A stretch of DNA of 64,000 nucleotides from positions 67,990,033 to 68,054,032 of the forward strand of contig OX485804.1 of assembly GCA_950295325.1 (NCBI GenBank). The letters are read 5' to 3'. Of the stretch, positions 18,001 to 63,310 are shown in pieces. Within the stretch, counting starts at the first letter, position 1; each line of letters opens with the position of its first letter. A program made the translations under genes and the position numbers. This DNA comes from Polytrichum commune (taxonomy: Eukaryota > Streptophyta > Polytrichopsida > Polytrichales > Polytrichaceae). The notes below the pieces were generated by a model. The model was not told the DNA's origin, did no database searches, and worked only from the letters and a program-made list of their open reading frames with translations.

Positions 18001-21000
18001 CCTTTGTGGCTGCAGGCTACTAAGGAGGCATTCGAATCAGCAAGGGTGTTAATGAAGAAACTTCAGAGCAAAGAAGCACATCTGGTAGCAGCACAGGTAT
18101 GGCTATAGTACCCTGAGGCCTGTTCATTCAAGGATGTTTGCATCAAGTGGAGTCTCGACTTACAATTGCTTTGACCTTTGCTGTGCACAGTACACTGCAG
18201 CGGTGAAGCAAATTAGACTCGAGACAGAGGAAATGGCTGTGCAACAAAGTCAATCCTTGACAAATATTCAAGAAATGGCAGTTCTCTGGCGCATGAAAGA
18301 GACTGAGCTGAGAGAGCAGCTTGAAGCAGCTCATTTAACCATCGAGAAGCTTTCGGGAAGGGGACGAGAGCAGGGTTCTTCTCCAGGCCCTGTACGTGGA
18401 TTCTCTGGCACTGGGGTTCACAGTGTGGGAGCAGAAGATGGGTCTTTCGAACGGTTACAAAGAGCTCAAGAGATTGAGATGCGTCATGCTGAGGAGGTCA
18501 TGCAACTCCAACTGGTATTGGAGTCATTGGAGGCTGTCCTTGAAGAAGAGCGATCTCAAAGAAAAGAAGTAGAAGATAAACTTGCACAGCTTGACGTGCC
18601 CGTTGGAGAGGCAGCCGGCAGCTCTGAAGCAACAACTCAATTGGAGTCGGAACTTGCGACCATCCAAGCGACTCTAAGTGAGGAGAGATCCCTTCGTCAG
18701 GGGTTGGAAGAGAAGGTAGCAAAGCTCCTACAGCAGTTGCAAGATGCTCAAGAGGTCACATCTACCTTGCATGCTGAGGAAGTAAGACAGACAAACGAGA
18801 CAACATATTTTGATGCTGTTTCTAGATTGCAAATGTTTTCTCCAGAGCAGAAATCATCTCGTCTGTGTGAGCAACTTGATCATGAGAAGGCACTGGTGGA
18901 GGCCCTAGAGAGTCAAAATCTTTTATCCATCCAGGAATTGGAGGCCCTGCAATGTGAGCACAACAAGGCCATGGAGAAGTTGAAGAGGAGGGAAGAGAGA
19001 GAGAGAATATTGCGGAAGAAGATAGAGCGCTTGGAATTTGAGTTAGTAAAAGAGCAAGAGCTTCGTGCACTGGAACGAGAATATGCAGAAATGAATGAAG
19101 ACGACGAGGAAAAGTTGACACTCGAGAAGAAACTGGAGGCCGCAAAAAGAGAGCTGGAGGTTGCCCATACGGACAATCTGAAACTCAAGGAAGAAGAAAT
19201 GGAGAAGGACGTGACACGTTGTCAAGCAGAAAGTGAGACTGTCCTGGCTATTACTTCCATGCAATCCGAGATCCTAAACCTGAAAGATGACGCTGAATCA
19301 GCAAACAAAGAGCTAGCAGCTGCAAGAGAACAGGTGGCGCAGCTCACTAATCAGCTGGACAATGTGAGCTTGATGTTAGCTGCAATGAAGGAAGAGAATG
19401 TGCAGTTGGTGGGTAAATACGAGGCACTGCAGAAGGAAAAAGATACGCTGATTGATTACTCTGCTGACCAAGCTCAAGCTTTGAATGAAACAGATCACTC
19501 CCTGAATGAAGCTTCACATGAAATGGAGCAGATATTCAGTTATTTCCCACCTTTACATCCCACTAGGTCGAGCCGAGATGGTACTGTTGTCTCGAGAACA
19601 GCAGAGAAGAAGAAGGCTGTTGAACAACTGAAACAACAGTTGCAGCACGCCCAAGAACTTGCCAAGGACACTGAAGGTAGGGTGAGGGTCCTCAGTGAGG
19701 CGGCTTTCGCAATGGCAGCATCCCAACTTCATGAAACACCACAGAAACAACACATGGAAACTCTTCAAAGTGAGATGGAGCTTGCCAAGCGGGAGTTTGA
19801 GAAAAGTGCCTATGCAATGTCCATTTTCGTGCGTTGGCTGTCGGATGTCCTTATTGTTAAGGAGGAAGCAGCAACTAACATGTCTTCGATACTCAAAGAA
19901 CGAGCTCTTGACATAGAGCGAAAGGAGGAACAAATTCTGTCTCTGCAGACTCGCCAAGAGGTCGACCTGTCCATCCTAAGAGAGTCGGAAGAGAATCTCT
20001 TGCAACTTGGCAAGGATCTGGAGGAGGCGAAGGTAAAGGCCACAGAAAATGAGACACTTGTTTCAGACTTGGAAAAGGAGATTACCAGGCTTCAATTGGC
20101 GATGGAAGTACTTGAAACAGAGAAGATGCAACTGTCTGAAGAGAAGTTGAAGTCTGACTGTCAATTGAAGGAAAATTCATCAGCTTTACAGTGCATAGAG
20201 GAGCATTTGACACAGTTGCAGTTTCAACTGAAAGAGTCAGAAGAGAAGGCAGGGGATGCTGCAAAAGCTCAAGAGAGTTTGGCAGTGGCGAAAGAAGAAT
20301 GGGAGGTGGAGAAGGGGGCATTGCAAAATAGTCTCGTAGACCTGGAACAAGCGAAAGTAGAGCTCGATGAGGAGATTCTACGACTCAGAGAGGAGGTAAA
20401 CAAAGTCAATGCTCAGTCTAATGAGCTCCAGGCCTTGTCAGTTGCCATAGACAGGCTGGAGACCGAAAAGTCAGCAGCACTAAACAGTCTCGCAAGACTC
20501 CAGGACGAGAGGGCTATCCTCGATGCCAGTGTAGTGGAATTGAAGGAGCAATTGGCTGAGGTGCGGGAACAGTGCGACGTTCTGAAGTGCCAGGTACGGT
20601 CCCATCGGTACTTGCTCGTGCATTGTGGCTAGAGCTACATCTTTCTTGTTGTTGACTTGGATTGTTCTGAATATAACGTGTATTCCATTGTTGATTCCAG
20701 CTAACTGAAAAGGAGGAGTTGGTCACTCTCAAGGATGAGAGCGAAAGGATTTCGTGCATGAGTATTAAGAAAGAAGAAGAGAAGTCTGCTGAACTAGAAT
20801 GCGAACTGGAAGCAGTGCGCGCAGAACTGAAGCGTAAGGAGTTGCGCTCCAAGGATTTGGAAAGTGAGCTCAGTGAGGCCGTTAAGACCTCAGAATTACT
20901 CGTGAAGGAAGGTGACGAGAAGATTACCGCGCTTGAGGAAGGGAGAGTGGAGTTGTCCCAGGCGATCGAAATGAAAGAGCAGGAACTGGCTGAGAATAAG

Positions 21001-24000
21001 AAGGAGCTAGATGCTCTCCAGATTGAATTACAGGGGCATCAAAACAAATTGAAGCAAGAGGAGGAGAAGACCCTTGAGGCACTCCAGTACTCGCAGCACT
21101 TGCTCAGAGAGAAAGATGAGGAAATTGCCTTGCTCAAGGAGGAAGGTACTCGGATGTCATGTATGAGTGTCAAGAAAGAGGAGGCCGAAGTGGTTGAATT
21201 GAAGAAAGAGGTCGAATTGTTGCGAGAGGATCTACAAAGGAAGGAGACGAGCTTGCGACAAGCAGATACACAGCTCCTTGAAATCCCAAAACAGAAGGAT
21301 GAGCAAATAACAGTCCTGAAGGAAGAAATTGAGATACTGATATCCATGAATGCCAAGATTGACATAGAGCTAGCTGAGTGTAAGGAGGAGTTACAGATGC
21401 TTCAAGTTGAGAGAGAGTCGCATGACTTGATTTTACAAGAAGCTGAGAGCCGTGTTGTTCAGGCAGAGTCTGCATCTGAGAAATTAAAGGAAGAGTTGGA
21501 AGCAGTCAAACTGGAGATTGAGGATCTCAAATCTGTAGAAGAGAAGGCATCCGAACTGCAATCTGCCTCAGTGATGAAGGATGAGCAGATCAAAGAGCTT
21601 GAGGGAGAGCTCGAAAGACTATCCACCAGAAGTGCAGAGCATGAGAAAGAGCTAGCTGAATGTAAAGGCCAATTGCAAGCACTGCTATCACAGGTTGAGG
21701 AAAAGGATTCTCGTCTTAAGGAAGCAGAGAAGAGTGTCAATCAGGCAGTTGCAGCCTCAGAGAAACTAACAGGAGAAAAGGAAGCTCTTGAGCTGGAAGT
21801 TGAGAATCTGATACTTGCAGCAAACGACACCTCTGTTAGGCTCTCAGAGGCTGAGAAAGTGCGGTCTGCTCTGCAAGAGAAGATCACTGATATTGAAATG
21901 CGTATGGCACAACTGGAGGACAGAGAGCAATCCCTGATCATGGAGATTGACATGCTTTCTTCTGTGAACAACAGTGGTGTCAACGATGTGCACGACTTGG
22001 AGCAGGAGGTTCTGAAGCTTAAGGAAGAAAGGGATAGGTTAACTTTAGAGGTATCGAGTATGGACATGCAAGGGGCAATAAGTGACAGATTACAGTTCAT
22101 TCAGACGTTGTGTATCGACACCGATGACCGGATAACCTCAATGCAGTCAGAAATTGATGAGCTCACCTCTGCAAGGGACGCTTTAGAAGCAGAAGTGCAG
22201 GCAATCGAAGCTCATGCTTCACGCCTGTTGCTGGAGCTTGCTGAGAAGGAGCAAATTATTGAACTCTCCCGAAACCATCAAAACATGGATGCAAGCAGCT
22301 GCATACAAGCAGATGCCAGTAAGGAAGATCTCATGGCTGCACAAACCAAGCTCCATGCCGCTGAAGAAAGTATCGTTACTATGGCTCGTACTATTGAGGC
22401 ATTGAACAAGACGAAAGCTGAGAAGGAGGAAATGTTTGCTTCATTGCAGGAGCGATTGGAGAAGACGAAGGAAAATCGCAATCAAGCACAAGACAAGCTC
22501 AATGCACTCACAGTGGCTATGCATGAATTCTCTGTCCTAGAGGAAAGCTGGAGGAATGAAAAGGAGAACATTCTTTCTGAGATTGAGGATGCTAAGTCTC
22601 AATTGACAATGAAAGAAGCAGAATGTTTGGCCTTGCAGGAGAAGAACAGAATGCTTGAGGTTCGTCTTCAAGAATTAGAAGTCGAAGAGGCAGCTACAGC
22701 GGCTGAGCTTGCTGCTTTGGAAAACGATCCAAAGGAAGTGAAGGCCCTGCTAAACGATGACCAAGTGGAACTTGCGAAGACTCAGGCGGCCTTGGCTGGT
22801 GCAGAAGAGAGAGTTAAGCTGTTGGTGGATGCCAATGCCACAATGAGGGATGATTGGGAAGGTGAACGAACTAGGCTGAATTCGGAGAAAGAATTGCTGC
22901 AATTAGAAATTTCTCGGCTGGAGAATTCTACATCGACTCCATTGATGGAGAATAGGGCTGTGGGTGTTGATGCTGAAAACAGCAATGATCAGTTCATTGA
23001 TGAGCTGAAGAGGGAAATTAAGAGAACAAGGGCTGATTGTGAGAATCTAAGAATCAAGATTCGCGAAAGAGATGATACAATCTTGTCAGTGCGATTGGAA
23101 CTGGAGAAAGCTGCAGTCGCACTGAAGGAGACGAATATTGAGATTGAGAAGTATATCAGGGAGAAGGAGGATGCTCTAAGGCGAATTGCAGCATTGGATG
23201 TTGAGCTGGAGGACGCTCGCAAGGAAATCATGAGACAGGAAGAGCAGGTATTCAAACTAGAGATTGAATTGGAGGACTCTCAGAAGGAGCTCATGAGGCG
23301 GGAAGAAGAGGTGTACAAATTTGAGGTTGAATTGGACAGCGTCGTAATGAGAGTGACAGCTTCGGAATCCCAATGGAAATCGAAAATGGACGAGCTGGAA
23401 ATGGAGAGGGAAGAAGCTAAGCTAGAGGCTTACACGATGGCCGAAAAATTCGAGACTTTGAAGAAAGAAATGGAGGATGCACAAGCCGCTGCAGAGGAAG
23501 AATCTCCTGCACGTAAGCAATCCATGCAGGAATTGGAGGACTCCGTCAATCTTTCTCTTGAGAGTATAGCTGCCATCGCCTCGGCCAAGGAAGAAGTTGA
23601 CATCACAAAAGACCATTGTGAGAAAGAGATGGAGACTCTTGCTGTGGACATGCAGTCTCTGAGAGCAGATATTAGCAACAGCTTCTTTGAGTTTCCCGTT
23701 GTCGAGATTCAACAAGATGTAAAATCCATCATTGAGGGTCATCGGGTCGAAATCGCTACCCTGACTGGAAAGGTCAAAAGCCTAGAAGGTCTTCTAGCAG
23801 ATAGTGCCGAGAAAGTTTCTTCCTTGGAAGCTGATCTTGAAGAAGCTCAGAGAGCCCGTGCATCTCTTGAGGCAGCTGAAAAGAAGATCAGTCTTTTGGA
23901 TGCGGAGAACTCTAGGAAGGAGCTTGAGATGTCTGAGGCTGCTGTAACTGAACTGTTAGCGGCTGTATCGGAGAGAGACACTTCTCTATCCGTTTTAAGG

Positions 24001-27000
24001 GAAAGACTTGAGCAGACACAAAGTCTTCTGGAACAGGCCGAAGCTCGATTGGAGGCCAGCCAGTTGGAAGTTGAATCTGCTAAGGTTGCACTCAATGAGA
24101 CTGAGCAGCTGCGCAGTCACGTCCAGTCTCTCCAAAATAAAGTTGCGAAGAAAGAGGAATTTATTAAGGGTCTGGAATATGATATCAATCTGCTGGAGGA
24201 GACGGGTGCTGCTGAGACAGAACAGAAGCAAGAAATTATCAACCAGCTGCAGAAAGAGGTGGATGCGAAGAAGGATGAGCTAGAAGGGTTGAAAAACCAG
24301 ATGGTCATTCAGGAGACCCACCTTCGAGAGATGAAGGAGGAGCTTGTCTCGTCTAAGGCAATAGCTGCCCGAGCAGCTGAAGAAAGCTTAGACATGCGTT
24401 CGAAGTTGGAATCTCGAGTAGCTCTACTGGAAGCAAAGGTGGAGGAAAATGACTGCACTGTGAGTTCGCTGAGCAAAGAGTTACAGGCAACTCAAACACT
24501 TTTGCAGGAGAGCGAAGCGGATGCTGCTAAAGCGCGCGAGGTAACATACCTACTTCGCATGTGCGCTCTCTCTCTTTCTTTGGTCTCTAATCCGTTTTCA
24601 ATGTTCATAATAAACCTTTGAGTTAAAACCTTCAAATCCTTCTGCGCTTCTGATGATAGTTTGTATTGTGATCACTAATCTCTCCATTCCATTTCGGAGC
24701 AGTCTGCAGAAATTTTCAAGACCTATGCTACAAGCCGGTCTCAGGAAGTGATCTTGAGAGAGGAAGAGTTGAAGATTCAGGTAAGGCGTACCTCTAATTA
24801 TTTATACCAACTCTTGCGTTGACTACTACCAAGCTCTGAACTTCATTTTGTGATTGCATGTGTGGTTGCTCACCTCTATCGAATTTAACGACAGGTGGTG
24901 ACACTGGAGAAGAAGGTGGCAGAGCAGCTTCAGATGAGAGAGGATGCAGAGAAGGAACTCAGGCAGTTGAGACAGCAGAAGTTCACTTCACAGGCTGTAG
25001 AATCTCGAGAAGCCCAAGCTGCCGCATTATCCTTGGAAAGGTTAGACAAAAAGTTGTGACACTCATTGACACTCATTGACAATCACACTTGACACTCATT
25101 GGTGATATTTTCATGTTTCCTCACCTGTTATACGCAAATGAAGTGCCACTCACTATGCTTATTCTCTCTGGTAATATACAGGAAAGTGAAGGACATGGAT
25201 GGCCAGCTATCACTTATGCACCAAAAGCTTGAAGTCACAAAGGCTCAGTGTGACAAGAAGGAGGCAGAATGTGTTGAGAAGGACTCACAGGTACTAAGTT
25301 GCCCAGAGCGATGCTATTTTCCTTTTGTTCAGGTTCAGGGTGATTCGTTTGGTGTACCCTATATAACAGAATTCGTACTCCACTCCCTCCCTTATCAGAG
25401 TCATGAAGTGTCTTTAAGTTCCTGGATAATTGCCATGCAGATCAATGTCCTCAAGACACAAATTAGCCAAGTGCCATTTTCAGCCGGAAAGCATGGTCTT
25501 GAAAATCACCAGAAGATAAAGGGGCTTGAAGTATTTGTAGAGCAAATGAATACTAGCAAATCTCTAGCCAGAACAGCCAGTATGGGCCACCATCTAGATT
25601 ACAGCAACGCCGACTTCGCTGCCAAGCGCCGAATCGAAGAACTTGAAGCTCTTGCAGAGAAGCGATTGAGAGAGGTGAGAATCATGCCCTTTTCTTGCAT
25701 GTTTTTTTCGCTGGTAAACTGTACACTTCCAGCCTACAGCATCAATGATGACACAATCGCTAAGTATTGGTGTGGATGCTATTGGATGCAGGTTTACGCG
25801 TTGAATATGAAACTTGCGGAGACTGAAAGTATCATGCACGATGTAATCCGAGAAATTGCTGGAGAGAAGTTGGATATTGAAAATTACAAGGTAGGGCTTT
25901 CGATTTACTTCCTGCCGGGTTTCAAAGTATTTCGGATGATTTCAAACGAATGACGGTCTGACCTGGATTTTATGCAATGCAGGCCATGATTAGCGGGCTA
26001 CAACCGAAAGACATTGTTGCCACTGTTCGACGTCAAAGCCTTGAGAGCCAGGAGAAGGTATTGATAGGTTCTGTGTGAGAAACAATTACAAACAATCACG
26101 ATGTTACATTTTTCTGGGTTAAACAACACATCTAGAACTCTGCCTGATACCATGGATCATTGTCTTTGCAGGGCCAAATGCAAGAACAAGAAGTGCACAA
26201 ATTGAGAAATCAACTGAACGAACTCATTGAAGAGAGAGCAAGGTAAATCATTTGCACTGCCTTCCACAGCTGCCAACTGTTCCTATATTTATCGACCATT
26301 GTACTTTTGTTATAATATGTTACCGCGATTTCTCTTGCTCATTTCCTGATTTCCTTAAAATTCCTTCGCAACAGCTGGCTGGAGGAAATTCAGAGAAGGC
26401 AGGCCGAGGTGGTGGCTTTCCGTGTTACTGCTGAGAAGCTGCGACACCAGGATGAAATTCTTACAGCTGAGAATGAGAAGTTGAAGGTGAATGATAGTTC
26501 TTCATTTCGTCATTTCCACGAATCTTGGGAAGATGCGTGCATCCGCATCCGTGTCTCATATTTACAGTAGCTGATGCTTTCGATGATGATTGCAGACACA
26601 CACCACAGGGCAACAGAAAAGGATAGGAGAGCTGGAACAAGAGATCAAAAAACTCTCTGGCCAACAAAATCTACAGCAACGAATCCACCACCATGCCAAA
26701 ATCAAGGTATTTTGAATCTTGAGGCCCTACATCTCAAAACGGATCAAATTGCCTAGCTTTGTGTTGACGAGTCCTCTAAATCGAGAAATTCCAGCTTTCG
26801 TGGTGTTAACTTTCTTGGGACACTATTGCAGGATGAAAATAATACTTTGAGACTCCAGGTGGAGGAGCTTGGTAACAAGCTCAGACGCTCGGACATGATG
26901 TTCGCTAGGGTTAAAGATGAGCTTGAACGATATAGAATAGGTGCAGGCAAAACCCCCTTCCCCAACATCGATGAAGAACAGCGATTAAAGATTAAGCTAC

Positions 27001-27843
27001 AGGTAATTTCTTCATACTTAGTACAGAATGTACTTGACTTGTTTTATTTGCAAGGAAATATCTGTATGACTTGCTGTGATATATTTTGACGTGTTGTGAT
27101 ATTGGATCTGTGTAACAGGAAGCAGAAGAGGCCAAGATCCAAGTTGCTCAAAAGTTTATTACGCTGAGTAATGCCGTTCTACAGGTATGAACCCATTTGC
27201 CTTCGGAAAGTTGCCTTCTCGATTTTGCGAAGCCGATCAATATGTCTTTGGAGCTATAACTTCTCGAAAGGTGTAAAGTTTCTCATGTTGCCCATATTGC
27301 TATTTATTTACCAGGCGGCAGGTATTCCCAATCCTACAAGGCAAGTTGATCAGTCGGCTGCATTGGAAGCTCTTCGGAGATTGGAGTCACGTCTTCGGTC
27401 AACAGAAGACGAGCTTTCGGAAATGAAACTCAAGGTGAATAAACAATTACACTACATTGTTATTCGTCTGACTTAGTGTGGTCCATATTATTCGTAAATG
27501 ATTTTGCAATGACTGTGGAACTCTAATCAACAACGCAATCTAATCAGCATGGCACATCACTGTTATAGCAAATCACTTTTATAACCACACCAAATCGAGT
27601 ATATAGTGTACCTACAATTCCTTAATTACTTTGTGAGTGGCTTTGTGAGTTCCTTGGCGAGTTCCCTTGTTCTGTGTCATCGTCGTCTATCGCCCTGACG
27701 AATGTGTCTTGGATATGGTGATGCAGACAAGGATAGCAGGCGAGAAGCGGCGGCTCACTGATTTGCGAGGGGTTCAGACGCCTGTGAAGGGAAGTAGTTT
27801 GGCAACCTCGCCCTACTTCTACAGCAGCCCTGCTCCTCGCTAG
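12096..27843 (+). CDS. Kinesin-12, phragmoplast-orienting (POK) class, 3,582 aa
   Basis: This is a plus-end-type motor with a very long coiled-coil tail. POK-class kinesin-12 proteins act at the preprophase band site and phragmoplast to place the division plane. I read 35 exons: 12096-12914, 13641-13796, 13963-14046, 14192-14311, 14441-14554, 14679-14771, 14876-15036, 15142-15216, 15327-15414, 15540-15598, 15749-15812, 15937-16002, 16138-16278, 16401-16505, 16606-16841, 16991-17126, 17237-17379, 17521-17674, 17791-17892, 18016-18096, 18191-20593, 20701-24540, 24703-24780, 24895-25040, 25182-25290, 25441-25674, 25792-25890, 25983-26057, 26172-26242, 26375-26486, 26596-26706, 26832-27002, 27119-27184, 27315-27434 and 27727-27843. 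The total of 10,749 nt is a whole number of codons. The motor is near residues 274-611, with P-loop GQTGSGKT (352-359), switch I NRESSRSH (475-482) and switch [11 protein letters not shown] (508-516). The low-complexity N-terminus (1-273) holds SP/TP sites. The conserved POK tail block ([19 protein letters not shown]) is in exon 26. It is longer than Arabidopsis POK1 and POK2 (about 2,070 and 2,770 aa from memory). The start is the ATG opening [13 protein letters not shown]; an upstream in-frame ATG at 12015 lies in GA-rich leader. Confidence 0.93.
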
Positions 27844-32700: not shown

Positions 32701-35022
32701 GACTTTAACACCTGGCAAAGTAATAAAATTTATAGTGGAGCTACTGACGTTTCTAGTTGCTACAAATGCATAATCTACCAATTATCGTACCTTGGAGAGA
32801 AGCTTTGCTAAGTACTCTGAACCCATTCGACTGACAAGATGTCCATAATCTGGACTACTCTGAAAATACTCCCGCTCTTTTCGCCTTGCAGCCACAATAT
32901 CAACATTTCTGTTAATATCGGCTTGTGATCTGTTTACCACTCCAACCCAGGGGTTGACCAAGCGGTATGCTCTTCCTTCAAGGACCTGCCAATAGAGGTG
33001 CATAATTCAGCAGAAGAAACCAGTTTTTAACTTTCAAGTACAAAGTTCCCTTAAACCCATTTGGTGCCCAGACAATTTTGCGTGTTCCAAATCGGCTTGA
33101 TATAGCACCACATGTCTCATCTTCGAGCATTCTTCATATAAAAACTCAGGAGTATGCTTGAAAGAAACTCACATCAACAGCGTTTGTTCCCTTATCCATG
33201 AGATCAAGTTTTGTCAAGACTCCAAATGTCCTCTCGCCTGCCAGTACGACCAGTCAAAGTTACTAAGTTTGAAAAGAGAAACACTTCATGCATTTCCTTA
33301 AATTTTTGTAGTCAAGGTCACGAATTAATACCTCCAGGGTCAACCTCACGAGCAAGCTTGATTGCATCCGAAGTTGCAATATCCTGGTTCGCTGGTGAAA
33401 TCGCCAAAATGAGGGAATTTGGCTGTATTGAACAACATTTTGAAGTTAAGCTAGAAAGTGATAGGAAGAGGAAACATATCATGACATGCAACTCGATAAT
33501 ACTCGAGTACAAATATGATGCAGAGACAGGAATCCAAGCAATGCCTGATAAGTGCTTTTGACTCAATAGAGTAATGACATGAGAAAACAGGGGCTGGACG
33601 AACCTTTTCCACATATGACCTAACCATGTCATCAATATCTTTGACGATACTGTCTGGTTGTCCCTCTGGATATTCCATAAGCACGAGCTTATTAGTAACA
33701 ATGTTGAATTTCATATCAATGCAATCAATCCTAGATGTGTAAACATCTCAAGGCAATGAAATCCATAATGGAGTAAAGAAACACAAGAATGATAATTACA
33801 TTGAAGAAACGTACCTACGGCAACCTTCGTCAACCCAGGTAGATCAATGAGAGTCAAATTCACCACTGCAGTTACAGCACATAGAATTATTATTTCCTGA
33901 AATGATGCAAGGTGATACATTCCAAATGCAGAACTAGATAAAACAGCTCCTGAGAAGGTCTCCCAACACAACTTCAATTTCTTAGATGGAATCGTACCAT
34001 GAGGAGAGTAGATGCTAAGATGGATTGGTACAGGAGATATTTGCTTGCTGCGACCTGTGACTCTGTCCGTCTCCTCTTGGATCTCCCTTCGCACGTATTC
34101 TGGAACAGGATCAATACTCCCCATTATAAGGAGAACATGCCTTGAATGCTCCAAAGAGTTCTAATATCAACTCACTCATATAACATTGCAACGTGGTCTA
34201 CATATGTGTCGTTGCGTCTACAGAAAGTAGGATTATTCGCAAAGTTAGCCATACTCTGCTCTTCGACAGATCACTAAAGAGATACATAGCACTCCAACTC
34301 CGAAACTTCCGTCTATTGTACATTGAGCACCCAAAAACTAGACTTACCAAAGTCATAGAACTTCTTCTTCGGGAGATGAAGAAATTCTCCATATTCCTTC
34401 CCTTCCTCTGTCTTATGTAATTGAAGTACAAGAGGTCGTCGTGTCACAATTCCTGAAGCATTAACAGGGAAAAGTTAGAATAGGTTGCCTCTATATAAAT
34501 GATCTGCCACTGTAGTTCTAACATTTACAATAAGTCCAACCATATTTTTGCCGAAACGCGCGAATACCTGAACCGCGAGGTAGGAAATCTCTGCCTACGA
34601 TGCTCTCCAGCACTGAGGACTTGCCAGAACTCTGTTTCAAACGAGACGAGACAATCAGAAGTCAGACCTCCACGAGAAGTAGACATGCAGGCTCTCATGA
34701 CCAAATAAGTACACATGGAAGTGTGACAGAAGTACAAAAAGAGATAACTGATTGGAAAACAAATCCATGAGTCCTGCTACAAACGTCATTTATTGCCAAG
34801 AAAGATTCTAGAAACGCAGAGACGTATACACGAGTTTCACAGATAATATTAAGTTTTGCAATTTGAAAGTGCGACGGCTGCACAGTTGCGTACCTGGCCT
34901 CCTACAACGACGACCGAAGGTAATGATTCCCAAAGAGTGGGAAGAGCGTTATCACCTCCATAATCTCCTAAAGCCGTGCATATCCTTTGTATTCTATTCA
35001 CCAGTCCTATTAGGCTCTCCAT
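29799..35022 (-). CDS. Dynamin-related protein 1 (DRP1 family), 609 aa
   Basis: DRP1 is a plant-specific dynamin GTPase that constricts and tubulates membrane at the cell plate and in clathrin-mediated endocytosis. I read 16 exons on the minus strand: 35022-34894, 34631-34568, 34452-34348, 34099-33998, 33865-33815, 33665-33604, 33422-33332, 33237-33173, 32985-32791, 32095-31976, 31780-31710, 31491-31266, 31139-31089, 30829-30601, 30454-30315 and 29927-29799. They sum to 1,830 nt, exactly 610 codons with the stop, the usual DRP1 length. The G1 loop GGQSSGKSS is at 41-49, the G3 motif DLPG at 141-144 and the G4 motif TKLD at 210-213. The C-terminus carries a GTPase effector domain with [11 protein letters not shown] and ends [10 protein letters not shown]. 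There is no PH or proline-rich domain, as expected for DRP1. The intron after exon 14 has a GC donor (AG|GCAAGC). Intron 9 is unusually long (695 nt). Confidence 0.95.
30455..30600 (-). other. GC-AG intron in DRP1
   Basis: Exon 14 must end ...AGG ATA G to continue as IGSNVSAY, the conserved start of the effector domain. The bases that follow are GCAAGC, so the donor is GC rather than GT. The acceptor is TGTACAG. No in-frame GT alternative keeps the conserved residues. Confidence 0.75.
32096..32790 (-). other. Long ninth intron of DRP1
   Basis: At 695 nt this is several times longer than the other DRP1 introns here. Short ORFs in it have no recognisable motifs, and no complete transposon boundary was found. 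Confidence 0.6.
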
Positions 35023-48923: not shown

Positions 48924-51900
48924 ATGGGATCAACATCTGAAAGTCCACGAGAGGATCTTACAATACCACTCCATGCCAATGTTTCGTCCGTGGAATTAAT
49001 AGATACAAGAACAGTCCTCACACGGAGGAGTTCTAGTGCTGGAGCACCCACAAATAATCATTCACCCTTTTGGTCCGCGGAAGACATTGAAGACAAACAC
49101 AGTAAATTCTAATCTCCTAAAAGCTTCCAACGTAGATAAGTAGTTGTAAAATAGTGCAAATGTAATATGTTGGAAAATAAAGGTTACGTGCGCACACATT
49201 TTGAGATTTGGTTTTGTTTTTACCGAAATGTGCATCCTCTGAAAGTTGTGCTCAATGAACATTTCTTCTTGCAATTATCAAGATGATGTTCCTTCATAAC
49301 TTCTCTTAACTCAATTCATGTTATTTTTCCTCCTATGGATGACTTCCAGCAAGGCGATCAAACGTTACTGCATCAGAATGTAACATGAGCACAGGGACGC
49401 CACGGTCACCACATTCCCAAAGCGGTGATAAAGACAAGGTGATGATTGATGATTCCAAGTTTTCAGAATATTCTTTGGAAAGCTCAACTATCTACTGATG
49501 GTTACTTGTTTGTTAAGTAATCATAAGGGAATGTAATTTCATATTCTAAAAGCACTGTTGGCATTCAACCCTCACACGAGTTTCATCTATGTTGCTCTCA
49601 ATTAACCCTGAAGTAGACTTCCTTGGCAATACATGTAGGTTAAGGTTTTTGTTCGAATGCGACCATTTTCCGAGCATGAGAAAGTATGCCCTCTACGACA
49701 GGTAATCCTATCGACGTGATGGAAATTGGAAATATGAAAATGGATATCTTTTTGAAGCCGGGTGGTCTTGCTCAATGCTTTGTGATTGTTGTTGTCGTTG
49801 GTGCTCATGTTCAGAAAGTATTTCCAGCAAAGAAAGGTAGCAAACCATATTCTAGACTCCATTTAACCATGCAAATTACTCTTCAGGTAATTTGCTTGAT
49901 CGGTGACAAGATCGTGGTGCGTGAGGTGGATCACCAACGCCACAAGATTGGCCCTACATCTAAAGATTGGCGTCGCACTGAATCTTTGGAGTTCAAAGTA
50001 GACTACGTTCAGGTATGTATCCACACCACTTTCATCCACTTTGAAAAGAGAATGGAAATGTTTTGAACAAGAGCAAAGAGATTCAAACAATATTTCTACT
50101 GCACTTTTGTTGGTAGTAATGTGTTCTCCCAATCCATGCTTGGTCAGCCCCCTTGGGATTCTTACACCTTATGTTGTAGTTCTTCGTCGAGATGAATCAC
50201 TTAAATAAATTGCGTGTAGGATGACAGCTATTTGCAGGTTCAGAGCTCGGATGCAAAGGAAGAGTCTCAACGCCGCATGTATGATACGCTTGGAGTCCCT
50301 TGTGTCCAAAATGCCCTAGACGGCTTGAATACAACGGTGCAGTTCCACGCCCCCCCTCATAGGCTACTCCTCCCTCTTTAGTAATTGAGTTGACCTTTGA
50401 GTGCAACAATATTATCAAATCAACATAGTGTGTTGTTCAATGTTGGGAAACATATATATTGTTCTGAATATGCACCTTGTCTTTCGTCAAACCAGATCAT
50501 AGCTTATGGTCAGACAGGCTCAGGGAAGACATACACAATGATGGGGGATGATACAACCTCAGGAAGAGGCTTGGTATGTGATGTATTTCATGTATTACCT
50601 TTATTTTCAAGAGCCTAAGCTTAGCAAATAGTCATTATATCGTCCTAAAACATTGTGCACACATTGACCCCAAAAAACGAACACTTTAGATAGTTGTCAA
50701 ATGGATCCAAATTTTGCGTTGTCAAAAGACAATCAATACAGAAAAAAAATTATGAATATATAGTAATGATTGTCCACTCATACCAATCAATGGCATGGTA
50801 CTCTATTTTTTGCCAGATGCCGAGGCTGGGTTGCCAGTTGATGCATCGCGTCAACAACGAGTGTGCGAAAGGTTCACACATCACTGTTCAGGTAATGCTG
50901 GATCCTATACTTTGGTGTGTACTCAAACTCTCTTTGGCACAAATCAAATACTGATGTAAGAAATTGATTTAATCAGGTGAGTTATTTTGAAATTTATCAA
51001 GAAAAGATTCGTGATCTGCTATCGTTTGAGAAATCGACTGATCCTCCTCCACGAGCAACACGACCCCGAACACCTACCTTTACAGTCAGCGAAGTGGGAA
51101 GTCCGGTGGAGGGTGAGCGTGCCGATGAAGATCGATCGTCACAATCCGAGTATGTTCTTGACGAATGTAATCATCCCGCAATTCAAGCAGACGACTCCGC
51201 ATTAGAGGTTGCCAGTGCAGAGAGTGACCCTGGCTTTACTGTGATTGATGAGCTCGGCAACGCCATGGAGGGCCGTCCCCAACAACCAAAATTTGAGTCA
51301 ACTGCTAGGCTCAAAGCAAAGAGAAAATCTAGTATGTCAACGACCTTGAAGGATGCAACACCGCAAAAACGAAGTAACCAATTTTCATCTCTTGTGTTTG
51401 GAGATTCTGGCGGGGTGAAGAAAGAGACGTTCCTCAGGGTTCGAGAGCACCCTGTGACGGGCCCTTATGTGGAAGGTTTAATTTGGAAAGAGGTGAGAGA
51501 ATGGGCGGACATGGAGAGGTTGTTTAAACAAGGTGCAGCAAATCGCACAACCTATGCTACAGACATGAATGAGCACTCCAGCCGCAGCCATGCCCTTTGC
51601 ACCATCAAAGTTACACGGGTACAACGTGTTTTTATTTTTTTCCTTTGATTCTTTAGCCCCAGCAACTCATTGTGATGTGGTTAGTTTTAAAGTGGGCCTA
51701 TCAGTACATTTAGATCTTTCATATGCTCACAAAGGAAATCGGTGTTCCGAAAGAGTTCTATACACAATTCTCAAGAGCCTAATTAACAGAATTGACACTT
51801 GAGAAACATTTGAGTCTCATTTGATGGTGCTTAGTGAAGGTGTACGCCCATTCAAGCAATATCTTGATGGAAGCATACCACTAACTCTCCAAGACGATAG

Positions 51901-54900
51901 AAAACTCTACTAATATGGTGTTGTGTTTGTTCTCTTGCTCATCCATTGCTTTGAATATAGCACAAAACACACTTTACGAAATCATATGTTTCGATTAGCC
52001 TCATTACAAAAGTTTTATACTTGTTGGATTCAACATGACGTTTAGTGCCTAAATGCATCTACTTGATGTCCCCAAACAACTAGGTCATTTTGAGTAAACG
52101 TTAGACAGACTCAAACTGAAGAGAAGATCATCATTGAACAAATGGATCATGTATAGAATATCTACGAATTAATAGCGATTACATGTATGGTACATTTGAG
52201 CAGGAGAACACTATGTGTTGAATTTTTGACAAAAGGTATTCGGTTTTGAATAACAGAGTCACGGGGCAAATATTCCTGGTTTATGCTCCAGTTTTATCCA
52301 TCTCGTTGATCTTGCAGGTTATTCCTTGATCTTCTCTACTGTATTCAACATAAAGAACCCGAGATTATATTGATGAGAATGGTCTGACTTACTTCCCTTC
52401 ACCTCTCCTCTCCAATGTCACGTAACATTAGTTGTTCTTTAAATGGGATATCCTCTTTGAAAATTCTTATTTTAAGACTTCAAAATGAGTTATCACACAT
52501 CACGTACAGTAGTTCAAAAAAACAGAAAATCTATAGTATGATATTCACCATTATGTATCTATGGATCGCTTAGATGAGTAAAGTTTTCTCACTACAGTTA
52601 TCTTGAATGCCCCTTGAATCATAATAGGCAGTGAAAGAGGAGGCACAGATTTGGCAGCATCACGCGCTGATGAATCTCGCTGCATAAATAAATCTTTGTC
52701 TATGTTGAACGAGGTAAATTGCATGTTCTTACCTCCAAGCCAATTCTCATGTCACCGATTTGTTGCATCGTAATAATTGATCTATTTGTGAGAGAAGTTA
52801 TTGTATTGACTGATGAAATTGCAGTGTTGAATTAACCGAGAGATACAAGCCGAATGCAATTGACATTTCTCTTGTGATTGTAGGTGATCCTAAGCCTTTC
52901 CAAGAATACATTCGTGTCGTATAGAAACTCAGTCCTGACATGGCTACTTCGAGATTCATTTGGCGGCAACAATAAAACATATATGGTTGCAAATATATCT
53001 CCAACAGAGCAGGTTCAAAATGAAATCCCCAAAATATATTAAAAGATACCATACTAAATTTCTCAAATATCCATATTCATTTATTGCATGTTTACTTTAA
53101 AACATGTTGTAGAGATCCTCATATGTTATGATGGATTTTACTAGCTTCAATGAGCACCGTCCACTTTTTGAGCCCGTTGAAATAAGGTAGATTGAGCCCA
53201 AGGTTCTAAATTCCGTTGGATATTGTATGTGTGGCAGGATTTGCGAGAGAGCGTGAATACACTTCGTTATGCTACGAAGGCAAATAAAATACAAAGCAAC
53301 CCACATGTTGTTGAGGCAGATCCACGAAATAGTCTCATCTACAAGCTGAAAGAAGAAATCTGCACTTTGCGCTATTTGTTAGCTTCTTTCTCGACCGACA
53401 AAAATAATGGAACCCCTGCTCCATCCGTTCATACCATTCCACAAATCGCAGAGGTGCAATCTTTGTTGCTCTATTTTCTTTGTAAACTTCCAAATCTTTG
53501 TAGTCAGGCAATATGTGGATGAAAACTATGTTTTCCAGGAATAATCCCCTCTTTCCACAAGATAATTTCAGGCATATAGGACTATAACTACAACCTTTAC
53601 TCTCTCGAAATCAACGCAAAACAGAGTTACTTCTGAACTCACATATTTTATGACCAGAATATCCTATGCAGGCATGCCCACAGGTCATAGACAACTTAAA
53701 CAGAAGGGAGAACGATGATATTGAATTGTGTTGCCTTGAGCCAAGTACAATAACAAGTGTTCCCAGGGTGTCACCCGTAACAACACCTCCAAATACTCCA
53801 CAAAGCCCGGTCCATGAATTGATGTGCGCAAAAGAAGGAACCATCACAAAATCCACTTCAGTCTTCAAGGCGACGATGGCAAGTTATGCCATCAACAACA
53901 TGAATCAGAGGACTTTAGAGCTTACCAACAGATTAACAGCTTTCTCACAGCATCGGCCAAGTCATCTAAGCCTCCAAGCAACTCCATCCCAAGGAAGTGT
54001 CAATCGAGTTGTTTCTTCCATTACCACATATACAAAGAGTGCACATGCCTCAGAAATGCCTGCCATTTTCTTTAACATACGTCCAAATGCTCAACCAAGT
54101 AGTGCAACACAAGAAGACACTTTTGAAGATGCTGAAGAAGAACTTGACAAGGTAACGGATGCAGGATGTCAAGTGGATTGCACTATGTGTGGATTGACCC
54201 AGACTGTTGAGCAAGGGAACAATACACAAGACTGTGGATTGGCTTCTCTTATGATGGGGTACATAGATTTTCAAAGTCCATATGAAACGGCTGAGGTGGA
54301 ACAACAAAGGCAATCAAATCATCCTGTAACTGAAGCGGAGGATGATAGTAGAATGGTTATTATTGAAGGAGGGCAATCTACTGGTTTGAGCCAATTGGAA
54401 GATGATAAACATGACAAATCCACGCCTCAAATACTGGCAACTCAAGTTGAGGAGCAACAAACCCCTAATGTTGGTGCTCCAATAATAACTAGTCCTAAAC
54501 AATCAACAATGTATATTAAGTGTGGCCAGACAACTTCACGTAAGAGAAGTGTTGCAGATATGATGCATCAGACGAAAGGATTTCGATGCATGGATGATTC
54601 CCGTGGCATCATAGAGCAAGAGTTCCTGAGAAATGTCAAGGCCACTGAGGTGGGACACCGACCTATTCCTGACATTCCCGATGCTAGCAACCAAATCAAA
54701 TGGGATCAACTGGCAAATATGGGTTCTGGACATCATAGTACAGTCAAGGAATCTGAAGATATGGATATTAAGAGAGAAAGTGATGCAACTCAGTTGGGAA
54801 ACCCGATGGTATGGATGGACTTTGGCACATCTTTTGCTGCACATAAGGTTCCAAATAATAATTTTGAGGCAGAAAGTGGAGGGCAATTGATGACTATGAA

Positions 54901-57900
54901 AAGGTGCGTACCAACTAATGTCTCCCCTCACGTGCACCTAAATGACTGCGGAGCACATGTTGAAGGTCATCGAATCCCAGGGATTGAGGCTGGGGTCTCT
55001 AATGTGGGCCACCAAATAGAATTGGAGGAGTGTGGAGGAATCGGTGCAGGTCATCAGAGTGACTTGAGAGAATGCGGGGTGATTGGCATTTGGGATGAAA
55101 CAGTCCCCAAGGATTTTGAAAATACAAAAGTGGGTCAAGTTATGGTGGAAGATTGTAGGCGAGAGCAACCAAATTCTAGATTTGTAGATGGGGGGCAACA
55201 AATTACACACAAAGGCCATGGAGTTGTTGATGTGGAGAATCAAACTTACCTCAAAGATTGCGGGGCACGTGATATTGGGCTCCAGACCTTTTGGAATAGC
55301 TTTGGGGCGTCCGATGCTGGTCACCAAGTTACTTTGAAAAAATGTGGAGCCATCGATGTCGGACACCAAGTGACCTTAAAGGATTGTGGAGCACTTGATG
55401 TAGGACAACAAATTACCTTGAAAACCTGTGGAGCTATAGATGTGGGGTATCAGATTAGCTTGAAAGATTGCGGGGCACTTGACATTGGCCATCAAACAAC
55501 CTTGAAGGAATGCGGAGCCAATGATGTTGGACATCAAACTACACTTAAGGATTGTGGAGCGGCAGACGTAGGACACCAGACAATTATAAAAGAATTTGGA
55601 GCTGCAGATTTTGGGCAACAGATTGTTTGGAACCAATTTGCATCCTCTGATGTTGGACATCAAATTCCAGCGAAATGTTTTGGCGTTGTCGATGAGGGGC
55701 ACCAAACTACCCTCAAAGATTGTGGGGCACGTGATATTGGGCACCAGAGTTCTTGGAATGACTTTGGGGCCTCTAATGCTAATCACCAAGTAACTTTAAA
55801 GAAGTGCGGAGCCATTGATGTAGGCCACCAAGTTAGTCTGAAAGCATGCGGGGTTGTTGACGTTGGATATCAAATTAATTTGAAATACCGTGGGGCAATC
55901 GATGTTGGGCACCAAACAAGTCTTAAAGATTGCAGAGCAAGAGATGTTGGCCAACAGATCACGTTACAAGATTGTGGAGCAGTCGATGTGGGACATCAGA
56001 CAACTTTGAAGGAATGTGGAGCTACAGACGTCGGACATCAAACAACCCTTCATGATTGTGGAGCTTCTGATGTAGGTCAACAAACCGATGTCGATGGGTT
56101 TGGAGCAATCGATTTTGGGCAACAAATTGTGTGGAACGAGTTTGCAGGCGGGGATGTTGGATGCCAAATAACTCTGCAAGATTGTGGGGTTATTGGTGCG
56201 ACACATCATGATACGTTAAAAGATTGTGGGAGGAATGATATTGGGCACCAAACCCTTTGGATAGATTTTGGGTCCTCTGATGCAAGTCACCAGGTGAGCT
56301 TGAAGGACTATGGAGCCATTGATGCTGGCAATCATGCAACATGGGAAAAATACGGAGTAATCGATGCAGGACATCAGACTAACTTGAAAGGTTGCGAAGC
56401 TACTGATGTTGGATACCAAATTACTTTGAAAGATTGTGAAGTCGTTGATGTTGGACACCAGACCGTAATGAAAGAGAGTGGACGTACAGACTTAAGGCAT
56501 CAGACCACACATAATGATTGTGGAGTTGCCGATGTGGGACAACAAACCATCTCCGGTAAATTTAGGTCAACTGATGTTGGGCACCACATTGTATTGAATC
56601 ATTGTGCATCTGCAGATGTTGGCAACCAAGTTTCATTCAAAGATTGTGAAGGTATTGATGTTAGCCATCAGATAGTATGGAATGAGTTTGGGTCCACCGA
56701 TGTGGAAAATCAAACCGTTCTGGAAGAGTTTGGTACTATTGATGTAGCCAATCGAGCTACCTTGAAAGACTGTGGAGCATCGGATGTAGGGTACCAAACT
56801 ATATGGAATGAGTTCTGGTCCTCTGATATTGGGCAACAGATCACTTGGCAAGATTGTGGAGCCATGCATGTAGGGCATCAGACCTCTTTGAAAGATTGTG
56901 GTGCATCTGATGTCGGACATCAGATCGTCTGGAATGAAGTTGGCTCATATAACATGGGCCATCAAGTCATCTTGAGAGATTGTGGAGCAATGGACAAAGG
57001 CCACCAAACCATTTGGAATGAGCTCGGGACCTCGGATGTTGGGAATCAAGTTTCCTTGCAAGTTCTCGGAGACCTCAACACCGAAAATCAGTCGACCTCA
57101 ACAGACCACTATGCTAATGACGTCGGGAACCAAATCACGTGGAACGAGCTTGGGGTTTTGGATGTTGGGCTTCAAATTACATTGCGAGAATGTGGCGCCA
57201 TCGACGAGTGTCAACAAATAACTTCAGAAGATTTTCAAACAACTACAGAGTCTAGACATGGGATTGTTTGGAATGATTCCAAAAGCCTAGATGCTTGTAA
57301 CCAGATTACATTGAACGAAAACGCATGCCTTGACACAAGACACCGAATGAATTTAGAAGATTATAGAGCAACTGATGCGGGACATCGGGTCTGTTGGTCA
57401 CAATTTGGGTCTTCTAATGTTGGACACCAAAGGTACATGAGAGAATGTGGAGTGATTGATGTTGGCCATCAAAGCACTCTTCATGGTTGCCACGCAACTG
57501 AGGTGGGTATTCAAAGTAGTGTAGGGGACTGTTGGACAAAGGAAATTCAACAACAACGTTTCTGGCACACAACGTGGTCTCTTGATGTTGGGTATCAAAC
57601 TACTTGGAATGATTTTGGAGTCGTTGAAACTAGCATTCAAATCGTACCAAAAGAATATGAAGAAATTGATATGGCAATCCAATATGATCAAATAGGCACA
57701 GATGAGTGCAGCCAATCATCAAACTACCATCATCCTTTCGATGCAAGGCACCAACCTCCTTGCAGTGAAACTGGTTCCAACGATACAATTTGTGAACCAA
57801 CAGACTCGGATAACCAAATCACGTGGAGGGACAACAAGATTGCTGAGGCAGGTAATCAATGTACTTTGAGGGATTGAAAGAATGTCATTGTTAGACCAAT

Positions 57901-59988
57901 AACAAAGCCGAGTTGTTGTGGGCAACGAAAGTTTTCCACCAAATCATGTGGCACAGCAGTGGGTCTTATCATGTGGGCCCTCCAATCAATTTATAGGATT
58001 GTGCAGTGTCGAATGTCAGCAATCAAACGGTGCGGGAAGAGTTTGGATACCTTGATGGATTGAGCGGGACTTGCACGTTAAAAGATTTCCCAGGGATCAG
58101 TGCACGTCAATAATACCCATATTGAGAGTACTGGGCAAGATAAAATCAGGCCACCAAGTGTCATCGTAAAACATTGAAGGGTTGTGTACCGGACCTGGTG
58201 GATGAGTGTATCTATTGAGTGGCATGGTGCAAACCGTCAAACCTCTGATAGCATCATACTAAAAAGAGAATGATTGTCATGAGCACCCAACAGGTCCCAA
58301 CACAGGATTGAATGTGCAAGGTGGACTTGATAAGGATCCACTAACTCTCAAGTCAATTTTATAAAAAAAAGTCCCACTTAGGTTTGATTCATGTTTAATA
58401 ACTGAAGCAGAGACACAAAGTGGACTTGCAGGATGGGACACAACCTGGAGGAATGTGGATACGGAAACAAGTATCCATGAGACATGTCTCTCAACACAAC
58501 AAAGGATCTCAAGTATGGCAAACAACAGCATGCTCCAAAAATGCTCAAGGTTCGGGACGGAGCAACAGCTTCCTGTCCTGAGATCATGTAAGTCACCACT
58601 GTGACCACAATGCTGTAACAAAGAGATAAGAGGCCACAGGATTATATTTTATCATAGAAGTAAGCACGACAGGAATGGAATTTAGACACCCATAGAGATT
58701 TATCCACCAGGAGTTTCTGATGGTTAACCTGGAGTACCATGGGAACTTGGAGCTATAGGTGCATGAAGGTAGATGTATCCAAACAAATCTGGAGACTTTT
58801 CTCCAAAGTAACAAGCTGCCACATCATAAAATTTGTAATTTACGCTTTTTGAACTGTTTTTCCCAGAGAGCCTTCAAAACAGCATTCTTCTTGCCACTCA
58901 CTGTAAATGATGCAGGTCAGGTTCAACACATTAATTTCCAAAAGGGAGACTGGAACAATCTTGATGGCCAAATTTACTCAGAAGAACAGACTATGCTTGA
59001 TAGGGGTGTTCAAACAAATACCTCAATGAATGGAGTCCAGGCGATTGATGGGTGCACTTGCTTTGATTATAAGAATGAGGAATCGGCTTCACACTCCAAG
59101 TGCAGCAATTCTCCAAGGATCGGACTGACCCTCTGCATTCTTTGGCTATATTTACAGGGTATTAACAAGATGACAAGATACAGGTCTCAAAAGAAAGTTC
59201 ACAAAACAGTACAAACTGCAGGAGAAACAAGTCCAGACTTCTCATATGACCACCAACTTCAATTATCAAAACCTAACAACTGCGCCCTTGGCAACTTTGG
59301 GAGCCAAGAAAGCAAAAACATATCTCCCATCTCTAGCCTGACACTAACCATCTCCTCTGTGTGGATCCTCTTCAAGCTATCTAGTGCTGCCAGGGAAACG
59401 GAGGTGACAAGAGGACAAGTGACTAGAATTGAGTTTGTTCCCATAAATCACCAAAGGGGTCTTGCAACTGCAGCTCATAGCCAAAGAGTTTTCATATGCT
59501 CCAGGCCTGAGCCAACTACAAATCAGCTGCAGTATACAGGAGTAGATTCGATAACATTCAGGAGCTCAACACCATTTCTGATACAACTATGTGGATGCCG
59601 TTCACTTTTGAAAGCCACCATTGTTGCAGGTTCAGGCTATGGAGCAGTAAGGAAACGAGCTTGCAAGGTTGTCTGCCACAAACCTGGAGAATGGATCATC
59701 CATTTCCTAAGGGCTGGAGTGAACCAATTAAGCTCTGGAAGGACGGTGCACCTCCAAGTGGAGCCATGCTTAGAGGAACAAGCAGAGTTCATATACATGC
59801 CGGCTGAGCGTTGTACAGGAAGAAACGGATTTGTCGTGGCACGTGTAAAGGCTGAGGCAAGAGGTAACCTCAATGGGCAACCAATGTTGAAACCCATGGA
59901 GCTTACTACAGGAGATAAGCTTGTGCTTTACAGTTCGGACTGGTCTACAACTTGCACCATGTATTTTTTCAATCTTATCACTTCATAA
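48924..59988 (+). CDS. Kinesin-3-like motor fused to a ~69 x 14-residue tandem-repeat tail (~2,370 aa)
   Basis: My model has 14 exons: 48924-49101, 49350-49438, 49639-49701, 49887-50012, 50220-50336, 50496-50573, 50817-50891, 50977-51618, 52257-52317, 52628-52713, 52884-53012, 53238-53453, 53672-57851 and 58916-59988. All phases close (7,113 nt). The motor starts [14 protein letters not shown] (residue 90) and keeps P-loop GQTGSGKT (196-203), switch I NEHSSRSH (440-447) and switch [11 protein letters not shown] (472-480), so ATPase activity is plausible. [30 protein letters not shown] and a neck reading LIYKLKEEI are kinesin-3 (KIF1/Unc104) signatures. The lysine-rich loop-12 insert is absent, and about 137 extra residues sit before LRVREHP. 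No FHA or PH domain was recognised. A Ser/Thr-rich linker (621-1042) precedes the repeats (about 1043-2013), then an unrecognised C-terminal region. The start codon and the last splice are uncertain: without that splice the protein stops at 57877. Confidence 0.82.
54940..57874 (+). repeat. 42-bp coding minisatellite: ~69 tandem 14-residue units
   Basis: Units read close to LKDCGAxDVGHQ(T/V/I)(T/S), alternating with an aromatic form near [13 protein letters not shown]. The period is 42 bp, a multiple of three, and the frame stays open for the full 2.9 kb. I count about 69 units, of which some 55 keep the Gln after a Gly-x pair. Units differ from each other in both sequence and codons, so the array is not a fresh slippage product. 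A block of 11 units repeats at higher order: ARDIG at 55268 recurs 462 bp later at 55730. Confidence 0.93.
57878..58250 (+). repeat. Decayed extension of the 14-residue repeat array
   Basis: Beyond the stop at 57875-57877 repeat-like text continues in other frames with stops. Examples are a HQIMW-like unit at about 57937, then [11 protein letters not shown] at 58007-58040 and CTLKDF at 58074. In my gene model this segment is intronic (57852-58915). It may be former coding sequence lost by frameshift. Confidence 0.6.
58251..58915 (+). other. Rest of the proposed last intron
   Basis: No repeats or motifs were recognised. The proposed acceptor is ATGATGCAG at 58907-58915. A second possible acceptor is TTTTTCCCAG at 58857-58866, which would put the next exon out of phase with the donor at 57852. 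Confidence 0.4.
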
Positions 59989-62539: not shown

Positions 62540-63310
62540 CTCAAACATCTTCACAAAAATCTATCACACCAAAACATGACTTTGCGGTTTTCCGCCCCTT
62601 CCAATTCCTATTTGCAGGGTATCTCATCTCTACACATCATCATCAAACGCAACATGTGACGCAAAACTCTCGGTGAAAAAAATGCTCTTGCTTCCTCTTC
62701 TTCTCTCTTCTCACCATCTTCACGAAAATCACTACCGCTTCCTCTTTTTCTCTCCAAATCAGCTTCACAAAGTTCGATCACATCGGAGCATTACTTTGCG
62801 GTTTTCATCCCCTTCCAAATCCTACTTACAAAATCTCTAATGTCCACGGATCATAATATCAAACGCAACATGTAACGCACAACTCTCGATAGAACATAAA
62901 CTACCGTTTCCTCTTCTTCTCTTCACATCATCTTCGCAAAAATCTATCACACTATCGTAGGGTGCCATCTGGTTCGACATAAAATAATTCTTTGCTTGAA
63001 GAAAATTGAAATGTATCATATGCACATTGGTCAAAACGTATTGAATCCTACGTGGAAATTCCCTTTCGGCACTCAAAGTGCTGAACCCCACATTATCTAC
63101 AGTACTTCGCGGTATTCAGCCCTTCCATTTCCTACTTACAATATCAAAAGCAACATATGAGGCAAAACTCTCAACAGAAAAAAAATTCACCTCTTCTTCT
63201 TCTCTTCACATCATCTTCGCAAGAATCTATTGCAGTGCCCTCCGACATTTGCGGTGTTTCGGCCTTCCAAATCCTAGTTGCAATCTCGCTCAGCTCCACG
63301 GATCACAACA
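62540..63310. repeat. Imperfect tandem repeat array (~140-300 bp spacing)
   Basis: A unit containing TTTGCGGTTTTC, CCCCTTCCAA, CAAACGCAACATGTGACGCA and CTTCCTCTTCTTCTC recurs about four times. TTGCGGT-like blocks lie near 62582, 62796, 63107 and 63249. Related CCACGGATCA blocks lie near 62836 and 63296. The array is CT-rich on the plus strand. ORFs crossing it (63078-63647) are not gene-like. Confidence 0.6.

Follow-up and report, generated by a model that had tools for sequence, protein, structure and literature searches.

A kinesin-3-like gene of the moss Polytrichum commune with a putative tail of more than fifty 14-residue units

Within a 64-kb stretch of the Polytrichum commune genome (contig OX485804.1, G000:C2:67990033-68054032; hereafter the window), we analyzed a kinesin gene whose motor domain is followed by a long array of 14-residue repeats. 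Motor, array and a C-terminal domain are most likely parts of one gene, extending approximately from 49385 to 59988. Its predicted product would begin with a kinesin-3-like motor, continue through a lead of about 440 residues into the array, which comprises more than 50 units of 14 residues, and close with an FHA-like domain at the C-terminus. Our leading, still tentative explanation is that the array of this single gene forms an ordered, near-proline-free rod, which holds the C-terminal domain away from the motor. The genome searched for relatives comprises 408 Mb in 64 contigs.

The proposed gene model is composed of the following features, given in positions of the window.

49385-49438, + strand: exon 1, probably the first coding exon, running from an ATG to a phase-0 GT donor that matches exon 2
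49639-49701, 49887-50012, 50220-50336 and 50496-50573, + strand: motor exons 2-5, with AG/GT borders and the P-loop (GQTGSGKT)
50817-50891 and 50977-51618, + strand: motor exons 6-7, exon 7 with a long insertion and switch I (NEHSSRSH)
52257-52317, 52628-52713, 52884-53012 and 53238-53453, + strand: motor exons 8-11, with AG/GT borders, switch II (DLAGSE) and SVLTWLLRD
53684-57851, + strand: exon 12, encoding the lead of about 440 residues and then the 14-residue array; 1407-codon open frame, in-phase acceptor, donor CAG/GTAATC at 57852
55004-57628, + strand: 52 clear 14-residue units, consensus VGHQ[ITV]TLKDCGAxD, second type WNEFGSSD
57852-58915, + strand: probable intron 12, proposed from donor and acceptor phases, with decayed array units in register at 57931, 57973 and 58015
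58916-59988, + strand: last exon, encoding a linker (DRGVQTN, KTVQTAG) and the C-terminal domain common with a paralogue; phase-1 acceptor as in the paralogue

All ten motor exons (49639-53453) are bordered by AG acceptors and GT donors, and their joined frame remains open into the array exon, for which 53684 serves as in-phase acceptor and 53672 as an alternative. The original observation of a motor joined in phase to a repeat exon is confirmed in the sequence, and the two are compatible with a single gene model. As the segment 49385-49438 has a terminal GT donor whose phase agrees with that of the motor, coding probably starts near 49385, while a start at 48924 is doubtful. At the 3' side, an intron between the phase-1 donor at 57852 and the phase-1 acceptor at 58916 would skip the stop at 57875-57877 and lead to an end at 59988. 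The open model then comprises 2295 codons in 13 exons, compared to 1946 codons without intron 12. The acceptors of the last exon are phase-matched and alike in the window copy and the paralogue (CAG/GTCAGGTT and CAG/GACAGTTT), and the intron 57852-58915 probably joins exon 12 to the last exon.

The motor was assigned by comparison with Pfam and with solved chains. Pfam Kinesin matches the frame 50968-51645 with an E-value of 2.7e-20. Against solved chains, the spliced motor reaches 196-225 bits with KIF13B, KIF1A and KIF14, 177 bits with KIF3B, the top match from any other family, and 162 bits with the best kinesin-1. Among the best 60 of 156 matches, the first 25 are entries for KIF13B, KIF1A or KIF14, are related to KIF1C or bear the title kinesin-3, some of them being chimeras; KIF3B comes next. 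By this best-hit comparison, the predicted motor is kinesin-3-like and closest to KIF13B, KIF1A and KIF14. P-loop, switch I and switch II are all intact in the spliced frame, and directly behind the motor a Kinesin_assoc match stays below the Pfam threshold (E 0.018). A long insertion is located at 51022-51430, between EKIRDLL and LRVREHP; in the paralogue it is shorter and diverged.

This paralogue (L011, G000:C4) possesses ten exons that match the motor exons with identical phases. The two motors are 54% identical over 460 aligned residues. Behind the paralogue's motor, at G000:C4:24947939-24948382, lies a domain that is 44% identical over about 150 residues to the C-terminal domain of the window gene, and no place in the paralogue scores at least 10 on the matrix of array units described below. 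Since the paralogue thus shares the motor exons, their phases and the C-terminal domain but has no array, we place the array inside one gene. A third, more diverged and partial kinesin of the same kind (L012, G000:C1:45616500-45626000, minus strand) has one match with a stop; neither the C-terminal domain nor the array was recognized within the 9.5 kb examined.

Concerning the identity of the C-terminal domain, the paralogue copy matches the FHA family PF00498 with E 0.0041 and 18.0 bits when 87 residues are used and with E 0.014 and 16.3 bits when 185 residues are used, both below the cut-off of 20.7; further Pfam rows, from E 0.025 upward, look like chance. The window copy shows no match to PF00498, and a genome search with this family at E <=0.001 yields nine places, which include neither the window copy nor the paralogue. 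An AlphaFold2 model of the window domain has a predicted local distance difference test score (pLDDT) of 32, and the comparison with solved chains gives only a ribosomal protein at E ~0.2. The KISc-FHA arrangement has been placed in the inferred ancestral set (PMC2867816). As an FHA domain is expected in the kinesin-3 family while the match stays below the cut-off, we call the domain FHA-like, an assignment that is weakly suggested and by the paralogue copy only.

The array itself lies in a stop-free frame of 1407 codons (53654-57877), for which the chance expectation at this base composition is about 10^-40 for one given stretch. Over residues 430-1400 of this frame, residue identity amounts to 0.345, 0.342, 0.336 and 0.301 at lags of 14, 28, 42 and 56, and to at most 0.12 at all other lags below 60. 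A position matrix, which was trained on 46 core units and hence is not independent of them, recognizes 52 non-overlapping units with a score of at least 20.7, the top score in 1000 shuffles of the open reading frame. These units cover 875 residues (55004-57628) and are accompanied by about ten degenerate ones. Lower cuts of 10 and 4 give 61 and 67 units, respectively, with about three positions expected from a shuffle at cut 4. The initial estimate of about 69 units and 970 residues is therefore somewhat high.

The units follow the consensus V-G-[HNQY]-Q-[ITV]-T-[LW]-[KN]-[DE]-[CF]-G-[AS]-x-D and fall into two intermixed types, LKDCGA and WNEFGSS, with links within the unit between Leu and Cys (P 3e-6) and between Trp and Phe/Tyr (P 0.003). 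Likeness is greatest between units that are 11 apart (0.50), which suggests old block duplications. Beyond the donor at 57852, intron 12 contains two in-register pairs of decayed units at a matrix cut of 8, versus none in the remaining 57.6 kb of the window, where isolated chance matches score up to 17.9. Part of the array seems to have come to lie within this intron.

When the exon protein was searched against the whole genome, this locus alone yielded the array; as the best candidates alone were scored, diverged copies may be missed. Three weak array matches (L006-L008) turned out to be minisatellites of 39, 42 and 42 bases without any place of at least 10 on the unit matrix. The two unrelated 42-base minisatellites are located at 1385-1780 of L007 (G000:C4; 9.3 copies, 91% alike) and at 1465-2476 of L008 (G000:C7; 19.7 copies, 92% alike), and we take the agreement of their period with that of the array as coincidence. 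A prokaryotic match (L013, 32% over about 50 residues) has no repeat in frame and was dismissed as chance. In viral contigs, 75 stretches fit a pattern and none is a relative. The array profile has no match among solved chains, the array exon has nothing over cut-off in Pfam (three rows below it, the best at E 0.07 and none a repeat family), and Rfam gives no match in the 64-kb window. Among the titles and abstract openings listed by searches of the open-access literature, none describes a plant kinesin-3 or a kinesin with a tail of this kind.

Is the array maintained as protein? This was assessed on the 46 core units (55274-57205), a selection that leaves out the degenerate units on both sides and so favors constraint. 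Over all 1035 pairs of these in-register units, the proportion of synonymous differences (pS) is 0.755, i.e., synonymous sites are saturated, compared to a proportion of nonsynonymous differences (pN) of 0.343. Identity between units is 0.66, 0.66 and 0.39 at codon positions 1, 2 and 3. The ratio of nonsynonymous to synonymous substitution rates (dN/dS) across 37 nearest-neighbour unit pairs is 0.18. The array frame contains no stop, whereas about 20 arise in a neutral simulation at equal mean divergence from the consensus; the other two forward frames contain 36 and 45 stops. Given the saturated synonymous sites, the low dN/dS and the lack of stops, we conclude from the sequence comparison that the array is old and that its protein sequence is kept under purifying selection, where the constraint measured is that on the unit type and not on each unit singly. 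The original prediction of selection on the protein sequence of the units, for which dN/dS between units had been proposed as the check, thus stands.

These values also bear on a neutral account, in which a real motor gene would have picked up a coding minisatellite that is neutral or selfish. The decayed units at the array's tail, the stop inside the probable intron, the array-free paralogue and the presence of other coding-length minisatellites in the genome would all suit such an origin. It is opposed by a protein sequence kept while synonymous sites became saturated, by the dN/dS of 0.18 and by the missing stops. Moreover, the compared minisatellites (L006-L008) are 85-92% alike in DNA versus about 70% in the array, a value that refers to 55313-55560, the only segment of the array reported by Tandem Repeats Finder. 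We regard drift as a very improbable explanation.

With regard to structure, the array differs from the preceding lead in composition. A single proline occurs among 664 array residues, compared to 24 among 410 lead residues, and the residues W, F, Y, I, L, V and C make up 31% of the array and 23% of the lead. Mean hydropathy is positive at columns 0, 4, 6, 9 and 11 of the unit, and a charge-hydropathy plot puts the array on the ordered side (0.462 vs 0.439). Because of the near absence of proline, the hydrophobic content and the hydrophobic columns, a folded rod seems likelier than a flexible strand. Modeled by AlphaFold2, 16 units alone show strands through most of the chain. The array may accordingly be pictured as an ordered repeat rod, probably of strand-turn-strand units. 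One coil of a beta-solenoid measures 0.48 nm, and by simple arithmetic the rod would be about 30 nm long if each unit formed one coil. Such a rod would keep the C-terminal domain distant from the motor. It would have expanded long ago by duplication of units and blocks, and its 3' end would since have shed some of them. For the tail, multivalent docking or a spacer rod had originally been proposed; the spacer gains from the position of the array between the motor and a C-terminal domain common to the array-free paralogue. Binding of LC8, the best-known mode of multivalent docking, suffers from an anchor that fails in 59 of 62 units, as detailed below.

Several observations weigh against the rod. 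Columns 5 and 12 are mildly hydrophobic too, such that the in-out alternation is not clean, and the charge-hydropathy margin is small. The five AlphaFold2 models have mean pLDDT values of 60, 48, 43, 32 and 31, with residues 106-138 below 50. A Foldseek search with the array model returned 118 matches, none of them at E <=0.001; the best, at 0.01, is an ice-binding protein. AlphaFold2 has been reported to give unrealistic beta-solenoids for repeats (PMC11795689), and for this reason we give the modeled strands little weight. An LC8-like motif would likewise preserve D, G and Q, three of the four columns with the highest conservation. Finally, every exon join of the gene model was deduced from genomic sequence.

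The frequent Cys and His residues of the unit call for consideration of a metal or redox function, in which these columns would coordinate metal or build up a disulphide ladder. Of 47 units, 26 have Cys at column 9 and 25 have His at column 2. Yet the two show no association, be it inside a unit (P 0.25) or from one unit to its neighbour (P 0.55), nor is Cys linked with Cys of the neighbouring unit (P 0.77), and Cys at column 9 alternates with Phe in linkage with column 6 (Leu or Trp). With Cys and His uncorrelated within and between units, metal binding was dropped; we would grant a function of this type only the slightest chance.

A different use of the array is docking, where each unit would act as a short linear motif recognized by an LC8-type (DYNLL) dimeric hub and two tails would be zipped together as in yeast Nup159. 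The best-conserved columns, D-x-G-x-Q-[T/I/V], come near the motif [D/S]-K-x-[T/V/I]-Q-[T/V]-[D/E] given in a published description of LC8 (PMC3078936), and in 47 of the 62 units of a list set by register, Q is followed by T, V or I. Triads of the form [TVIC]Q[TVI] are found in the array flanks (DAGCQVD, LTQTV, LATQVE, DRGVQTN, KTVQTA) and in the paralogue tail (VETQTP), together six versus 2.7 expected (P 0.055). Here, the right flank was counted from 58867, 49 bases before the modeled exon; counting from 58916 gives the same two triads. The enrichment is marginal, and motor domains hold such triads too, one in the window copy and two in the paralogue.

The genome encodes two canonical LC8 genes (exons L003 and L004), as the docking account would require. 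However, 56 of the 62 units place H, N, Q or Y in front of Q, and the canonical anchor [T/V/I/C]-Q-[T/V/I] is present in only three of 62, even with these permissive letters. The near lack of proline and the hydrophobic composition of the array (31% vs 23% in the lead) also argue against docking. According to PMC6607443, any deviation of the anchor, e.g., RQT, gives a nonbinding sequence. Since 59 of 62 anchors are noncanonical and such deviation is reported as nonbinding, we do not class the array as an LC8 client, and regard docking as unlikely.

Two further LC8-like exons were identified besides the canonical ones, L001 (G000:C7:34073093-34073245) and L002 (G000:C3:7778635-7778766). In these, the groove residues Tyr75 and Tyr77 are replaced by His and Cys, while the LC8 C-terminal sequence is mostly kept. 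The comparison covers the last 44 residues, and the numbering, counted back from the C-terminus, fits the groove residues named in PMC3078936. Conceivably, their altered groove could fit H, N, Q or Y before Q, and the array would be a docking strand offering LC8-like light chains more than 50 sites; we consider this variant distinctly doubtful. If true, the tail of a kinesin and one branch of light chains would have co-evolved, forming a long motor-hub rod in a lineage that is not known to have cytoplasmic dynein. Under the docking account in general, the array would offer a test of the role of dynein light chains in such plants.

Returning to the kinesin-3-like gene as a whole, the family is reported to be missing from flowering plants. 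The 2006 survey by Richardson et al. (PMC1434745) places no plant kinesins in family 3, leaves the flowering-plant clade unresolved, and lists no FHA domain among the kinesins of those photosynthetic eukaryotes that it included. Likewise, a 2012 survey of Physcomitrella was unable to assign any kinesin unequivocally to family 3 (PMC3472504). The presence of two such genes in a moss genome, one of them with an old, selected repeat tail, suggests that land plants retained kinesin-3 and remodeled it. The array may further serve as a natural test of how tail length and repetition affect a motor.

Other features of the window include a second, larger kinesin gene at 12015-27500, which we presume to resemble the kinesin-12 type, with motor exons at about 14189-15040 and open frames at 18089-20632 and 20695-24621 that have a coiled-coil look. 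A related motor about 38 kb upstream of it (G000:C2:67965588-67966581) suggests a tandem pair. A fragment of a dynamin-family gene occupies 33711-34157 of the minus strand, where PF00350 matches above its cut-off (E 3.6e-7), and at 62542-62944 a 214-base unit is present in two tandem copies with 76% matches.

Among known systems, yeast Nup159 and animal ASCIZ likewise carry repeated tail motifs with Q followed by a beta-branched residue. As described in PMC5963919, Nup159 has five LC8 sites, with five LC8 dimers stacked linearly along it, and human ASCIZ has 11 functional sites. In contrast to both, the present array has more than 50 units, with a noncanonical anchor in 59 of 62, and is near proline-free. 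By description, the window gene may be likened to the orphan class I kinesins of Physcomitrella, a pair of related proteins whose tails are poorly predicted and which lack homologues in Arabidopsis and animals (PMC3472504).

Short-coil beta-solenoids, e.g., ice-binding proteins, share with the array a short unit of regular build, conserved G, D and Q residues and hydrophobic columns, but for the array neither a significant structural match nor a sequence match was obtained, the latter among solved chains and Pfam. The closest likeness in the motor is to kinesin-3 (KIF1A, KIF13B, KIF14), accompanied by the sub-threshold Kinesin_assoc match behind the motor and, weakly and in the paralogue, by an FHA-like C-terminal domain. 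In known kinesin-3 members, the FHA domain follows shortly after the neck. The window gene differs from these members by its 14-residue array, by the long insertion in motor exon 7 and by an FHA-like domain placed at the C-terminus.

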